Below, in pieces: positions 12,621 through 46,657 of a DNA stretch of 64,000 bases; the stretch's first letter is position 1, and each line of letters begins with the position of its first letter. A model generated the notes under the pieces. That model was given only the letters and a program-made list of their open reading frames with translations, ran no database searches and was not told the origin of the DNA. This stretch comes from Pseudobdellovibrionaceae bacterium (GTDB taxonomy: Bacteria; Bdellovibrionota; Bdellovibrionia; Bdellovibrionales; UBA1609). Location of the stretch: positions 124,001-188,000 of the forward strand of contig CANEZP010000003.1 in NCBI GenBank assembly GCA_947444305.1, given 5' to 3'. The translations under genes and the position numbers were made by a program.

Positions 12621-12626
12621 GTGGAG

Positions 12627-13130
12627 GTGAGACCAAGACAGTTCGTCCTAATCTGCATGGCGCTCGTACCGATGGTATTGGCATTCCAAAACTGCAGCCA
12701 AGGTTTTACCGCGGCGGGCATCGATAAATCCTCGTCGGCCCAATGCAAAGCCCACATGAAAAGCGAAGCGCTGAAGAAGAAATGGTCCCACGCGGATTTC
12801 CGCTGTGACGATTTTGCCTCTTACGCCTGCGAACGCCGCGTGTTTAGCCCCGACGTTCAAGACATGACTCACTTACTTACCGAATGTTTACCCGGCGACA
12901 CGATTTGCGTTGAGGTTGATGTACGCCAATACAACACTTCGGTTGCGCGCGGTCCAAGCGCCCAGGCCTCCGACTTTGAACCCGGTGGATCATACAATCA
13001 CGAAGAGGTTCGCTGTCATCACCGCTGGTTGTACGAAGGTGCGGTTTTATTCGAAGGCGAAAAATCTACCATCGAAGAATCGCTAAGCGCCGCGATGTCC
13101 GCTTGTGAAAAAGCCCTGGAGAATCAATGA
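12627..13130 (+). CDS. Cysteine-rich exported lipoprotein of unknown function
   Basis: About 167 aa. The GTG at 12627 gives VRPRQFVLICMALVPMVLAF followed by QNCSQGF, that is a basic n-region, a hydrophobic core and a Cys in an unusual FQNC lipobox of the kind common in Bdellovibrio lipoproteins. A GTG at 12621 is the alternative. The mature part holds seven further Cys (for example SAQCKAH, FRCDDFASYACE, TECLPGDTIC, EVRCHHRW), suggesting disulfides outside the cytoplasm. No family was recognised. Its stop overlaps the start of the next exported protein by four bases (ATGA), so the two form an operon. Confidence 0.7.
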   Translation: MRPRQFVLICMALVPMVLAFQNCSQGFTAAGIDKSSSAQCKAHMKSEALKKKWSHADFRCDDFASYACERRVFSPDVQDMTHLLTECLPGDTICVEVDVRQYNTSVARGPSAQASDFEPGGSYNHEEVRCHHRWLYEGAVLFEGEKSTIEESLSAAMSACEKALENQ

Positions 13131-13621
13131 GAATTTTTATCTTCGCCTTCATCACGCTTTTCGGCCTCGGTGCGCAGGCGCATATTCGCGCAAAGACGTC
13201 GGGTAATTTAGTGCCGCGTTCTACTTCGGATAGTTTAAAATCCGCCCCTTGCGGAGGCGTGGCCCGCGCCCTCTCGTCCGCGACGTACACTCCCGGCCAG
13301 ACCATCACCATGACTTGGGAAGAGACGATCAACCATCCCGGTCGCTTCGAAATATCATTCTCGCCGGCGGGCGATGCGAATTGGCAATTGTTAAAGACGA
13401 TTCCCGATACGATGGACAATACGAATGACTTGCCCCACCAGTATTCCACGACGGTCACGCTACCGAATACGCCCTGCACGGCTTGCACGATTCAATTGAT
13501 TCAAGTGATGACCGAAAATCCGATGTCGCCGACGTATTACTATTCGTGCTCGGATATTAAGTTGCAGTCGGCCACCCTTACGCCGCCCACGACGACGCCG
13601 GTTTCACCCGTTTGCCCGTAA
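13127..13621 (+). CDS. Small exported protein, SCE4755-family (polysaccharide monooxygenase-like)
   Basis: 164 aa with a signal peptide ending at GLGAQA, so the mature protein would begin with His (HIRAKTSG). Further marks are APCGG near residue 40, an Ig-like strand TMTWEETINHPGRFEISF near 63, and PCTACTIQLIQVM with YYYSCSDI near the C-terminus, then a Pro/Thr-rich tail. This combination resembles small secreted proteins named SCE4755 family, which are compared with copper polysaccharide monooxygenases because an N-terminal His and a second His could form a copper brace. Family assignment is from memory. It is coupled to the preceding lipoprotein and converges on the gene ending at 13628. 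Confidence 0.65.
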   Translation: MRIFIFAFITLFGLGAQAHIRAKTSGNLVPRSTSDSLKSAPCGGVARALSSATYTPGQTITMTWEETINHPGRFEISFSPAGDANWQLLKTIPDTMDNTNDLPHQYSTTVTLPNTPCTACTIQLIQVMTENPMSPTYYYSCSDIKLQSATLTPPTTTPVSPVCP

Positions 13622-13627
13622 AGCTTT

Positions 13628-15403
13628 TTAACCCGCTTTTTTCTTGATGATGTCGGTCAGGTAGCAGGTCGCCAAAAACGTGCGCAAGTTTTCTGCGTCG
13701 ATCGTTTTCATATAGAGGTCTTTGATTTGACCGCTTTGTAGACGCTCTTTCTGTTTAGTCTGCATTTGGCGTCCGTTACGAAGATACAAAAAGTATTTTT
13801 CGTTCTTCTTAAAATGCAAATAGACCTTGAACGTAACGGGCGCTTCGGCCGGGATATGTTCCAGCGCGATCGAATACATCGATTTGTCTTCGATGACCTT
13901 CGGCTTAGGAATCGGGCGCTTCGTCGCGAAGAACGCAACACCGATTTCTTCGGTTCCGTGCGAGGTCGAAAAACTGAAAGCCGAATTTTTCGAGGCCCAG
14001 TCACCAAAATCAACGCTCGGTAAGGTCACGAAGAATCCCGACTCTAAACCGGCTTGCAAATTCATTTCGATAAACGTGGCCGATAGAACTTCTTGCACTT
14101 TGTTAAAGAAGGGTTCGATCGCTTGCATGTCATTGTGTGGCCAAGCGATGACGAGATAGCCGGGCAAAGTGGGCGAATCGACCGGGAAGACTCCGACTTG
14201 TTCAATTTTACCGACGCTCGCGGGTTCGTCCGTGGCGGGTTTACAGATTTTATTTAGAGCCGCTTGAACCGCCCGCTCGATAAGGGAATGAGGTCCCACC
14301 GAAGCTAAGGACTTCATCTTTTTTGCGCGCGGCTTTTGTTCGTTCGTCGCGTTGGTTTGCCCAGCGGTGGGCACGACGAGACCCTGCGCTTGGGCCGTCG
14401 CCGGCGAAGGCAGTATCGCTTCGTTTGTCTGCGCCGTCGTTGGCCGCGGTAAGACCGAATCACCCTGCGCTCTTGCTTGCTCGGGTAGAATCGACTCATT
14501 GCTTTGAGGAGCCGTCTGATGCGGCAATAGGGATTCGTTACCCCGCGCCGTCGCCTCCGGTAGAATCGTTCCCGGTCCGTCACCCGATGAAAAGCCGGCT
14601 TCCTGCGTGAACATACCCGCGGCGCTCAGCCCCGTCGTTCGGTTCGTATCCGCTTCAGCTTCCTTACCGGGGTCCGATTGCAATTCATCGGCGGGATCGG
14701 GCGTAACTTCCGGTTCCGCAGCGTCACCGAACAAAGATTTTTTTAATTTAGCGGCAAGTGCTTTCTGATCGACGCCTTGGTCCGCTTCGTCCGAAGCATC
14801 TTTCGCCGCTTTCGAAAGCTCGCGCAAGGAACGACGGTTTGTTTTACTCATCGTGTACTTGCCGGTCGAAAGCTTTTCGTTCTCGATCAGATTGTCTTCG
14901 TCCTCGTGCTTTTCGCCCTTAATGGTCGTCGGCCCATTGTCGTCCTTCGCACCGGAAGAACGCGTCTGACCTTTGTCGTCTAACTGAATGTTTAGTTTTT
15001 CCGCCAGCAACTTCCGTAGCGAACGATGCAAGGTCGGTCCACTCGCCTGACCTTGGATTTTCGCGGCGATGGGCGATTTCGCGAGGCGGGCGCCCGAAGC
15101 GTTATCAAAATTCTCGGCGAAGGCGACGCATGTCGCACCGAAGGTCGTCGTTAAAAGATCCGAAAGTCTGATCGTCGCGGGATTGGGATGATTGACGCTA
15201 ATCAAAACAAAATCAGGTTTGCGATCCGTGGCGAATTCGATCGCTTGCGAAAGATTAGTTAGAATCGTCGTCGGCCAACCGCGCCGGGTTAAAAAATTGG
15301 CGGCCGGCTGAATCTTCGCGGGAGTCTTTGCGATAATAAGAACCAATACCTCGATATCATCGAGATCAATATCCTGCATATTGGCATTTTTATCGATCGC
15401 CAA
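13628..15403 (-). CDS. Pseudo-receiver protein with tandem LP repeats, unknown function
   Basis: About 591 aa, cytoplasmic, no membrane segment. A TTG start at 15403 has AAAGGA at ideal spacing; a GTG at 15421 is in frame but lacks one. Residues about 15-135 look like a response-regulator receiver fold (VLVLIIAKTPAKIQPAANFL, then PDFVLISVNHPN), but the usual phospho-acceptor Asp is replaced in LISV. A charged linker follows, then six 12-13-residue repeats of the form [ILV]LPxxxxAxxNE[SA] (14351-14566), then a basic stretch and a C-terminal alpha/beta domain of about 230 residues that I do not recognise. A consensus FliA promoter lies 40 bases upstream, which points to motility-phase expression. 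Confidence 0.8.
   Translation of the reverse strand: MAIDKNANMQDIDLDDIEVLVLIIAKTPAKIQPAANFLTRRGWPTTILTNLSQAIEFATDRKPDFVLISVNHPNPATIRLSDLLTTTFGATCVAFAENFDNASGARLAKSPIAAKIQGQASGPTLHRSLRKLLAEKLNIQLDDKGQTRSSGAKDDNGPTTIKGEKHEDEDNLIENEKLSTGKYTMSKTNRRSLRELSKAAKDASDEADQGVDQKALAAKLKKSLFGDAAEPEVTPDPADELQSDPGKEAEADTNRTTGLSAAGMFTQEAGFSSGDGPGTILPEATARGNESLLPHQTAPQSNESILPEQARAQGDSVLPRPTTAQTNEAILPSPATAQAQGLVVPTAGQTNATNEQKPRAKKMKSLASVGPHSLIERAVQAALNKICKPATDEPASVGKIEQVGVFPVDSPTLPGYLVIAWPHNDMQAIEPFFNKVQEVLSATFIEMNLQAGLESGFFVTLPSVDFGDWASKNSAFSFSTSHGTEEIGVAFFATKRPIPKPKVIEDKSMYSIALEHIPAEAPVTFKVYLHFKKNEKYFLYLRNGRQMQTKQKERLQSGQIKDLYMKTIDAENLRTFLATCYLTDIIKKKAG
14351..14566 (-). repeat. Six tandem 12-13-residue coding repeats
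   Basis: Within the pseudo-receiver gene, 72 codons form six degenerate units: ILPEATARGNES, LLPHQTAPQSNES, ILPEQARAQGDS, VLPRPTTAQTNEA, ILPSPATAQAQG and LVVPTAGQTN. The spacing of LP is 12 or 13 residues. Such low-complexity Pro/Ala/Gln repeats usually form a flexible linker or a docking array. Confidence 0.8.
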
Positions 15404-15445
15404 AGATGGTCCTTTAAACACTAAGCATTTAGTGTTTCTAAGGAC

Positions 15446-44215: not shown

Positions 44216-45838
44216 TTATTCGAGCTCTACGCCCGCGGTTGCGGGATTGCGAATGTCCGGTTCGAGCGGGGGAGTATTCAGCTCCTTCGCGAGCCACTCT
44301 CCACTTTCCGGTGAATAAGAATTGATATTTAAAACGGCGGCGAAACCCGATTGATCTTCGATCTTTCCGGGATTGTTGCAATTGACGACGATCACTTTCG
44401 CCCGCAACTCTGGGCTAAGTTGAACCAGCCATTTTGCGGTCTTCGATCCCGAAGCGTAGAACACGGCCACCGCCCGGCGGTCGTCGGCGATTTCAGCCGC
44501 GGCCTGCAAAATGGTTTCTGGATTTAGCGTTTGGAAGTCGGTTTTGCCATGGAACGTTCGTTTGAAAGAAGCGTAGAAGCGGCGATCGCTGGCAAGCACG
44601 ACGACGCGCGATTTTTTATCAAGCACCGGCCACAATGAGGTTTTCGCTTTGACCGCGTCCTTGAAATTCTTCTGCATGATCTCGCGAGAGAGTGCCTCAA
44701 GTTTGGTTTTGATCTCGCGTGATTTCTTGTCTTCGACCTGCACCAGCGGTTTGCGGAGCGTACTTTTCGCTTCGAGGATCCGGGCTACGCTCTCGTTCAG
44801 GCGCTCCTCGGAAATTCGGCCGCTTTTAACGGCCGTCATCATCGCTTCGAAAGCGAGTTTTTGATTCCGCGGGTGGCCCGCCAACATCAGCATGTCGTTA
44901 CCGGCTAAGAATGCGCGGATCGCTCGCTCGCCGAGGTCGTCGCTTATCGAAGCACCGCCCATTTCTAAATCGTCGGTGAGCACAAGACCGTTGTAGCCGT
45001 ATTTATTGCGTAAGATTTCTTGAATGATTTTTTGCGAATACGTTGCGGGCAAGCCCGTCGCATCGACGTTCGGCAAAGCCAGGTGTGCCATCATCATCGC
45101 CTTAGGATATTTAGCGCCGGCGTACTGCATGAACGGCATGAGATCTCTTTGCTCGAGCTCTTCGAGCGTGGCCATTTTTTTCGCCGCCTTTAAGTGGCTA
45201 TCGTTGACCATGCCGCCATGACCGGGAAAGTGTTTCGCGGTCGGGATCATGCCCGCGGAGGCTAAACCTTTTGCATACGCTAGGGAGAGTTCGGTCACAT
45301 CTTCCGGCTCCGAACCGAACACGCGGTTAGAGATAAAAGAATTCGAATTCGGATTCGACATATCCATGACGGGCGAAAGATTGACGTTGAAACCGAGGGC
45401 CATGAGTAGTTCTGCGTTCGTATGGGCGTAGCTTTCCACAAACTGCGCATTTTGCATCTGACCAACGGCAAGCGCGCTCGGCAGCGGAGTGCCGACCTTC
45501 ACGCGGGTGACCGTTCCACCTTCTTGATCGATCATCATGAATAGCGGTGCTTTGATTTTCTTAGAAGCGAACTTCTGGGCGTCGGCGTTGAACTTTGCAA
45601 TTTGCGAGGTCGATTTGATATTACGCGAGAACGCGATAAGGGCGCCGAGCGGATACCGGGTGAGCATATCCTCGGTCTGCTTCGAAAAGCTGGTCCCGGC
45701 GAAGGTCCAAATCATCGTCTGCCCGACCTTTTCCTGGACTGACATACGTTCAATCAAAGGTTTTTCCTGGGCGTTCGTCCGCGGACATTGGGCTAGGAAA
45801 ATTAATCCCGCGACGAAAGAGGAGATTTGCAAAAGCAC
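44216..45838 (-). CDS. Glycoside hydrolase family 3 protein, NagZ-like
   Basis: About 540 aa; beta-N-acetylhexosaminidase type likely acting on peptidoglycan fragments. The GH3 core contains MMIDQEGGTVTRV near residue 100 and the NagZ hallmark TAKHFPGHGGMVNDSH, with LTDDLEMGGAS carrying the nucleophile Asp. A C-terminal domain of about 190 residues beyond classical NagZ (about 340 aa) follows. The N-terminus is hydrophobic and ends in LIFLAQCP, a lipoprotein-like or signal region, so it is probably exported. GTG at 45838 is the likeliest start; a GTG at 45895 would overlap the divergent gene. Recycling or modifying murein is inferred. Confidence 0.85.
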   Translation of the reverse strand: MLLQISSFVAGLIFLAQCPRTNAQEKPLIERMSVQEKVGQTMIWTFAGTSFSKQTEDMLTRYPLGALIAFSRNIKSTSQIAKFNADAQKFASKKIKAPLFMMIDQEGGTVTRVKVGTPLPSALAVGQMQNAQFVESYAHTNAELLMALGFNVNLSPVMDMSNPNSNSFISNRVFGSEPEDVTELSLAYAKGLASAGMIPTAKHFPGHGGMVNDSHLKAAKKMATLEELEQRDLMPFMQYAGAKYPKAMMMAHLALPNVDATGLPATYSQKIIQEILRNKYGYNGLVLTDDLEMGGASISDDLGERAIRAFLAGNDMLMLAGHPRNQKLAFEAMMTAVKSGRISEERLNESVARILEAKSTLRKPLVQVEDKKSREIKTKLEALSREIMQKNFKDAVKAKTSLWPVLDKKSRVVVLASDRRFYASFKRTFHGKTDFQTLNPETILQAAAEIADDRRAVAVFYASGSKTAKWLVQLSPELRAKVIVVNCNNPGKIEDQSGFAAVLNINSYSPESGEWLAKELNTPPLEPDIRNPATAGVELE

Positions 45839-45857
45839 GGCAAGCTTTATACGTGTT

Positions 45858-45871
45858 TTAAGTATACTTAA
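45858..45871. promoter_or_regulatory. 14-base palindrome in the divergent nagZ-like/OMP-like region
   Basis: TTAAGTATACTTAA is a perfect palindrome three bases before the ATG of the rightward gene and 20 bases upstream of the preferred NagZ start. It could be an operator or a shared promoter element. Confidence 0.4.
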
Positions 45872-45874
45872 GGC

Positions 45875-46657
45875 ATGAAGCGCGGGCGTTTTCACATCTA
45901 TATCATCGGCATTTTCCTTTTAAACTTTTACGGCCCGGCCGCGTTCGCGCAGCTCGAGGGAATGACGAAATACACCGGGGAAGCGAAGATGGTGACGGTT
46001 GAGCCAAGCCACATCATCACGGTGAAACAAGACGACGGCGATTACTCGCTTGAGTCCTACCGCGACCGCCGCGGCAACTGGGGCAAAACCATTTCGCTGG
46101 GCTACAGCACCTACGAACCTTCGAACTATTCGCCTAATTTTTTGGAAGCCGGCTACGACGAAATCTACGAAACGCCGGAACTGCCGCTGTTCGAAATGCA
46201 GTTCGCGATCAAACGCAACAGCCGTTCGATCACGTGGGGCGCCGAGATGAGCGTCGGTATTTACCAGAACGAGTCGGACCAAAAATCCTTGATCCAAAGT
46301 TCTTTGCAGATCATCCCGATCAAACTCGGCGGAACCCTGATGTTGGATGCGCTCGGACCCGAGCCCATGTTCGTGCCGTACGTTTCCGGCGGTGGTTACA
46401 TGGTTTTGTATAAGGAAGACAACAACGACACTTCGATCAACGGAAACACGCAGATCGCGCCTTACTTAACCGCGGGCATGGCTTTCTCCCTCAACTGGAT
46501 CGACAAGACCGCCGCGCGCATTTCGTACGAAGATTCCGGCATCGAGCAATGCTACGCCTTTGTAGAAGCTCGCTCGTTGTTCGAAGCCGGCGACGAGCTC
46601 GATCCCGATTTTTCGAGCCAGGTGAATTTCGCCGGTGGCTTTAAAGTAGAATTTTAA
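45875..46657 (+). CDS. Predicted outer-membrane beta-barrel-like protein
   Basis: 260 aa. Signal peptide MKRGRFHIYIIGIFLLNFYG to about AAFA, then alternating polar/hydrophobic strands rich in Tyr and Gly (for example SLGYSTYEPSNYS, FVPYVSGGGYMVLYK, APYLTAGMAFSLNW) and a terminal aromatic residue (GGFKVEF), features of small outer-membrane barrels (OmpW/OmpA-like fold). A DDGDYSLESYRDRRG loop follows the N-terminus. No specific family was recognised. The AAGG before the ATG sits within the palindrome edge. Confidence 0.7.
   Translation: MKRGRFHIYIIGIFLLNFYGPAAFAQLEGMTKYTGEAKMVTVEPSHIITVKQDDGDYSLESYRDRRGNWGKTISLGYSTYEPSNYSPNFLEAGYDEIYETPELPLFEMQFAIKRNSRSITWGAEMSVGIYQNESDQKSLIQSSLQIIPIKLGGTLMLDALGPEPMFVPYVSGGGYMVLYKEDNNDTSINGNTQIAPYLTAGMAFSLNWIDKTAARISYEDSGIEQCYAFVEARSLFEAGDELDPDFSSQVNFAGGFKVEF

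Follow-up and report, generated by a model that had tools for sequence, protein, structure and literature searches.

An SCE4755-family His-brace protein gene and its lipoprotein partner gene in a Pseudobdellovibrionaceae genome: a two-gene module with a candidate disulfide tether

Bim1, a His-brace protein that is anchored to the membrane and serves copper uptake, is small like the X325 proteins with which it is grouped (PF20238); its anchor is a GPI anchor, and in X325 the fourth copper ligand is an Asp. LPMOs, the polysaccharide-cutting enzymes of families such as AA9, AA10 and AA15, carry their copper in a two-histidine grip, and we take F219 of 4oy7 (AA10) and Y160 of 4b5q (AA9) to be axial residues and H76 of 4b5q to be a copper ligand. 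The catalytic histidines of 4oy7 are H35 and H144 (PMC6423801), and in 5msz (AA15) His91 is a copper ligand and Tyr184 the axial residue (PMC5823890). The SCE4755 family (NCBIfam NF043005) has an enzyme-like name without a study in the open-licence papers searched, none of which mentions SCE4755, and earlier work may exist. Here we describe a member of this family in a 64,000-nucleotide stretch of a Pseudobdellovibrionaceae genome (the window), where a conserved upstream partner and a C-terminal cysteine point to a protein that is tethered and not freely released.

The gene lies at 13127-13621 (+), starts with an ATG at 13127 behind a Shine-Dalgarno-like GGAG read from the sequence (13118-13121, +), and encodes a precursor of 164 aa with a predicted mature form of 146 aa. 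Its product matches NF043005 at 118.6 bits (E 2e-34, model positions 6-145 of 146; curated cut-off 75 bits), PF03067 (Pfam LPMO_10) at 35.3 bits over model positions 83-183 of 183 only (E 2e-8; gathering cut-off 23 bits), and PF20238 (BIM1-like) at 30.4 bits as the precursor (E 6e-7) and 27.4 bits as the domain alone (gathering cut-off 27 bits), and it is the sole match of each profile found in the genome. These scores are far beyond chance, and the open reading frame picked out by an earlier sequence-only reading is, by its sequence, a real gene of the SCE4755 family. The NHPGRF, APCGG and CTIQLIQVM segments named in that reading are all present, and its comparison with SCE4755-like proteins and copper monooxygenases gains support from the three profile scores and from the ligand alignment given below. 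The protein shares with NF043005 a full-length match over the cut-off, His1, a second His, and the PCG and YYSCAD-type motifs, whereas the model covers neither the partner nor the tethers described here. For comparison, 36 other family members were used; a weak protein-search match, L022 (G021), was spurious and was dropped as a relative, and no relative was found on the plasmids or viral contigs searched. That this product is an LPMO-like SCE4755 protein, secreted and with a His brace, is a prediction well supported by sequence.

A Sec signal peptide, MRIFIFAFITLFGLGAQA (13127-13180, +), was read from the sequence with the cleavage site ..FGLGAQA|HIRAK, so the mature chain is predicted to begin HIRAK. 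The N-terminal His proposed earlier thus has a plausible Sec site before it as well as an alignment behind it: in the full-length relatives a hydrophobic stretch ends in A, G or S and a His comes next, with one exception, G289 (Asn). His1 (codon 13181-13183, +), a predicted copper ligand through both its N-terminal amine and its side chain, is invariant across 20 aligned mature sequences, as are Cys24, His52, Tyr120 and Cys123; left out of this alignment were G289 (brace lost), G326 (a near-duplicate) and G310a (divergent). The profile built from these sequences matches 4oy7, 5msz and 4b5q by sequence. His52 of the NHPGRF motif (codon 13334-13336, +), the second predicted copper ligand, aligns with H144 of 4oy7 (chain position 110, counted along the alignment), H91 of 5msz and H76 of 4b5q, and the predicted axial residue Tyr120 (codon 13538-13540, +) aligns with F219, Y184 and Y160, respectively. 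The domain cysteines Cys24, Cys99, Cys102 and Cys123 (mature numbering; 13250-13549, +) probably form two disulfides, and Cys99 and Cys102 are kept or lost together among family members. The protein very probably binds a single copper ion between two histidines, as the polysaccharide-cutting enzymes do.

The His of a YYHCADI motif near the C-terminus of the relatives had been thought to be replaced by Ser in the window protein, a view that the family does not bear out. Most relatives have YYSC or YFSC, that is, Ser too; YVHC is found in five divergent members only, YYQC in three, and YYHCADI in none of those compared. Loss of a third His was rejected because the Ser column, two residues past the axial Tyr, aligns with a Ser of 4oy7 and is not a ligand. 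Among the relatives, G289 (L013 / L037) has Asn at position 1 and Gln for the second His, retains the tail Cys and the partner, and is a natural brace-less form; a divergent subgroup (G310a, G385a and G388 at L042, L078 and L080, respectively) has a long insertion and a YYQCID motif and lacks both the tail and the partner. The AlphaFold model of the mature protein, built with one relative, is a low-confidence beta-sandwich (pLDDT 63.5, below 50 for residues 1-26), too poor for copper-site measurement, and a fold search with it gave generic beta-sandwiches with no LPMO among the matches listed, a result that excludes no fold.

Directly upstream lies the partner gene (12621-13130, +), which overlaps the family gene by 4 bases (ATGA), the ATG lying within the upstream stop, and the two are probably translationally coupled. 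The predicted lipoprotein has 169 aa, a lipobox ..AFQN|C with the lipid Cys at position 25 (codon 12693-12695, +; QNC, NNC, TNC, SGC or SAC in relatives) and seven further Cys, among them a linker Cys, 'c1', at position 42 (codon 12744-12746, +). It has no noteworthy match in Pfam, NCBIfam, PHROGs or PDB, and its structural model is meaningless (pLDDT 36). The partner stands directly upstream of the family gene in all 21 phylum genomes that have the latter, as 20 complete pairs and one cut by a contig start (G333). When 369 genomes were searched with a partner profile, strong matches (E 2e-26 or better) came only from these genomes and from G172, whose contig ends within the partner; G029 and G235, in which the family gene was not found, gave weaker matches over most of the domain, and all further matches were short and weak. 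The genes around the pair otherwise differ, even between two species of one genus, so the pair moves as a unit. A comparison for a further copper or CAZyme gene next to the module gave, beyond the pair, only a few gene groups common to up to four of the loci compared, none of them including the window. At the level of sequence comparison, 12621-13130 and 13127-13621 form a two-gene module. The accompaniment of an SCE4755-family gene by this partner is new here, and the partner was previously unannotated.

The window protein has five Cys, of which four fit two disulfides and the fifth, Cys145, is unpaired and next to last in the chain (..SPVCP; codon 13613-13615, +). It stands at the end of a Pro/Thr/Ser-rich tail (13556-13618, +); P, T and S make up 58% of the 19 residues that lead from YYSCSD up to the last Cys. 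Across 34 members, all 15 with a linker Cys in their partner carry the tail Cys, and none of the other 19, where the partner is absent or without that Cys, does so (Fisher p = 5e-10, a value that ignores kinship and overstates the case because the rows are related). The underlying table rests on starts and lipoboxes set by rule and, in the case of four partners, by hand. Complete phylum pairs are of two types: 14/14 of the first combine a tail Cys with a partner that has the linker Cys and an odd number of Cys, and the remaining 6/6 have a Cys plus transmembrane tail on the family protein and a partner with no linker Cys and an even Cys count. The partner of G131 has lost two core Cys together, leaving its count odd, and both orphan partners (G029 and G235) are without the linker Cys. 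The tether hypothesis drawn from the first phylum was then tried on a second, that of G310, with 16 family genes, 14 of them with readable ends (the others being G310b, at a contig end, and G389, which ends at the domain). A partner accompanies only one of these 14, G390, which is also the only one with the tail Cys; the linker Cys is present in that partner. On the best tree the tail trait changes four times (three to five in bootstraps), its strongly supported branches force only one change, and a single origin is compatible with it; three divergent members were left out of this tree.

The association argues for a tether between a copper His-brace protein and a lipoprotein, with the unpaired tail Cys and the unpaired linker Cys of the partner (Cys42) joined in an interchain disulfide. 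Such a bond would hold the copper domain on a flexible leash from a lipoprotein that is probably located in the outer membrane. Since G289 lacks both His ligands and keeps the tail Cys and the partner, the tether would be independent of copper. The "secreted protein" of the sequence-only reading keeps its predicted export signal and His brace, but the tail Cys and the partner suggest that it would not be set free. We consider it unlikely that the C-terminal Cys is used in some other way, in a homodimer or for a lipid as in MYXO-CTERM proteins, beside a merely co-expressed partner. The related members with a Cys, a transmembrane stretch and a mostly Arg-rich end do resemble the tripartite MYXO-CTERM tag, but the tail Cys and the extra partner Cys are gained and lost together across the 34 members, second phylum included, and a homodimer would not need the linker Cys of the partner. 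The tag itself consists of a C-terminal Cys motif, a transmembrane helix and an Arg cluster, and the window protein ends in SPVCP with no transmembrane segment.

If the protein is instead a freely secreted LPMO, it would oxidatively cut prey-wall, chitin or biofilm polysaccharide, the role proposed in the sequence-only reading along with a link to proteins of predation. The score over the PF03067 cut-off speaks for this, as does an LPMO-type ligand set: by alignment, His1 and a second His ligand are in place, and the axial residue is a Tyr, as in most AA9 and in AA15. With the AA10, AA15 and AA9 enzymes the protein has in common the aligned second His and axial aromatic residue and a His1 exposed by signal cleavage, but it differs in its tethering tail and in a shorter N-terminal part, with about 30 residues ahead of the first common strand against 90 in 4oy7, 71 in 5msz and 52 in 4b5q. 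Two residues before the axial position, where an LPMO usually, though not absolutely, has a second-sphere Glu or Gln (Glu in 4oy7, Gln in 4b5q), the window protein has Thr118; close relatives have Ser, Thr, Arg or Ala in this column, and Glu occurs only in the five transmembrane-tailed YVHC members. Two residues before the second His, AA10 has Ala and the window protein Ile. Against a free enzyme also stand the conserved tail Cys with its lipoprotein partner, the lack of any GH18 chitinase in the genome, and a patchy distribution, with the family gene in 15/291 genomes of an even phylum sample and in 7/47 genomes of the taxonomic family. We regard a free LPMO as improbable. Because of this patchiness the protein would be no core predation factor, and the flanking genes that were scanned have housekeeping functions (succinate dehydrogenase, ETF, PPIases, PdxA and phosphomannomutase), further ones being recognised by eye only; the proposed setting among predation proteins was thus not recovered, and an attack on prey-wall or biofilm polysaccharide found no particular support. 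Convergent with the pair, a gene at 13628-15421 (-) encodes a 597 aa protein with no Pfam or NCBIfam match over the cut-off, and a protein encoded at 44216-45895 (-) looks by eye like a GH3 beta-N-acetylhexosaminidase (RMSVQEKVGQT).

A role in copper acquisition or handling at the surface, like that of Bim1 or X325 and with no activity on polysaccharide, would be compatible with the tether and is a possible, if on balance doubtful, reading. The window protein resembles X325 and Bim1 in being a small His-brace protein, in its PF20238 match over the cut-off, in its short N-terminal region and, on our interpretation, in surface anchoring, for which a lipoprotein partner would take the place of the GPI anchor of Bim1. 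The fourth ligand of X325, however, is Asp, whereas in the 20 aligned SCE4755 sequences Tyr is invariant at the axial position, as placed by alignment with 4oy7, 5msz and 4b5q; no recurring copper gene was seen next to the module in the loci compared, and G289 has lost the His pair but retains the module. Anchoring and a short domain recall Bim1, and the axial Tyr recalls LPMOs.

Taken as a whole, the observations are probably best explained by a coupled module in which a copper domain is disulfide-tethered to a lipoprotein and carries out copper chemistry at the surface. The second gene would supply a small His-brace copper protein built on an LPMO-type beta-sandwich (His1, His52 and axial Tyr120), and the first its anchor. 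Copper chemistry at the cell's own surface is the most likely function, either as oxidative trimming of nearby polysaccharide or as copper capture of the kind proposed for GPI-anchored Bim1, and we would give these two about equal weight. Should it hold, bacteria would have in this module an equivalent of Bim1 and other anchored copper proteins, with a bearing on the role of His-brace proteins that have no known substrate, and the partner would serve as a marker for function.

Other tail types occur in the family. In six members the bare tail Cys is replaced by a Cys motif and transmembrane stretch with a mostly basic C-terminus, similar to the MYXO-CTERM signal of myxosortase but with looser spacing; for the five of these that were scanned, no match to the MYXO-CTERM model was listed. 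One transmembrane-tailed member, G145 (L010 / L034), has a frame, open for 380 codons, that continues past its tail into another stretch with Cys and a signal-peptide-like character. In the second phylum, ten family genes that lack the Cys partner are followed directly by a gene for a small lipoprotein. Five of these lipoproteins were scanned alone for FnIII, and two matched from profile position 12-14, one matched weakly from position 2, and two had no match. The tails of the family proteins next to FnIII-like lipoproteins end in P..(N/G)LKV, a motif that resembles the first strand of FnIII. When tail and domain were joined in silico, with joins chosen by eye and the lipoprotein's own signal and linker dropped, the match started at position 2 in 3/5 pairs, and scores rose from 16.4 to 21.5, from none to 12.5 and from 17.7 to 25.7 bits, the last alone passing the FnIII cut-off of 25 bits; the other two joins went from none to 15.4 and from 14.9 to 16.7 bits, with a match that did not reach the strand. 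That the tail donates the missing first FnIII strand to the downstream lipoprotein is a lead, not proof.

A second tail type linked to a lipoprotein agrees with tethering as a recurrent feature of these proteins. We tentatively suggest, as a generalisation with a little under even chances, that members of this His-brace family are held at the bacterial surface through C-terminal tethers that are exchangeable and have arisen repeatedly in evolution, be it an interchain disulfide to a Cys-rich lipoprotein (as in the window), a strand that completes the split FnIII domain of another lipoprotein (in the second phylum), or a Cys plus transmembrane sorting tail. The two lipoprotein tethers yield clean, quickly testable predictions, and display of a copper redox domain by either a disulfide to a lipoprotein or an FnIII strand has, to our knowledge, not been described. 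FnIII-like lipoproteins seemingly without a first strand are encoded at L081 2039-2491, L082 2044-2457, L091 2155-2556, L089 1984-2409 and L085 1952-2500 (all +), and others of the same type at L084 1160-1588, L087 1923-2426, L088 1382-1876, L090 1995-2426 and L079 2018-2497 (all -, with coordinates along that strand). A pentapeptide-repeat-like protein is encoded beside the family gene in four second-phylum genomes, at L002 4528-4980 (+) and at L087 926-1435, L088 418-846 and L090 762-1418 (-, again along that strand).
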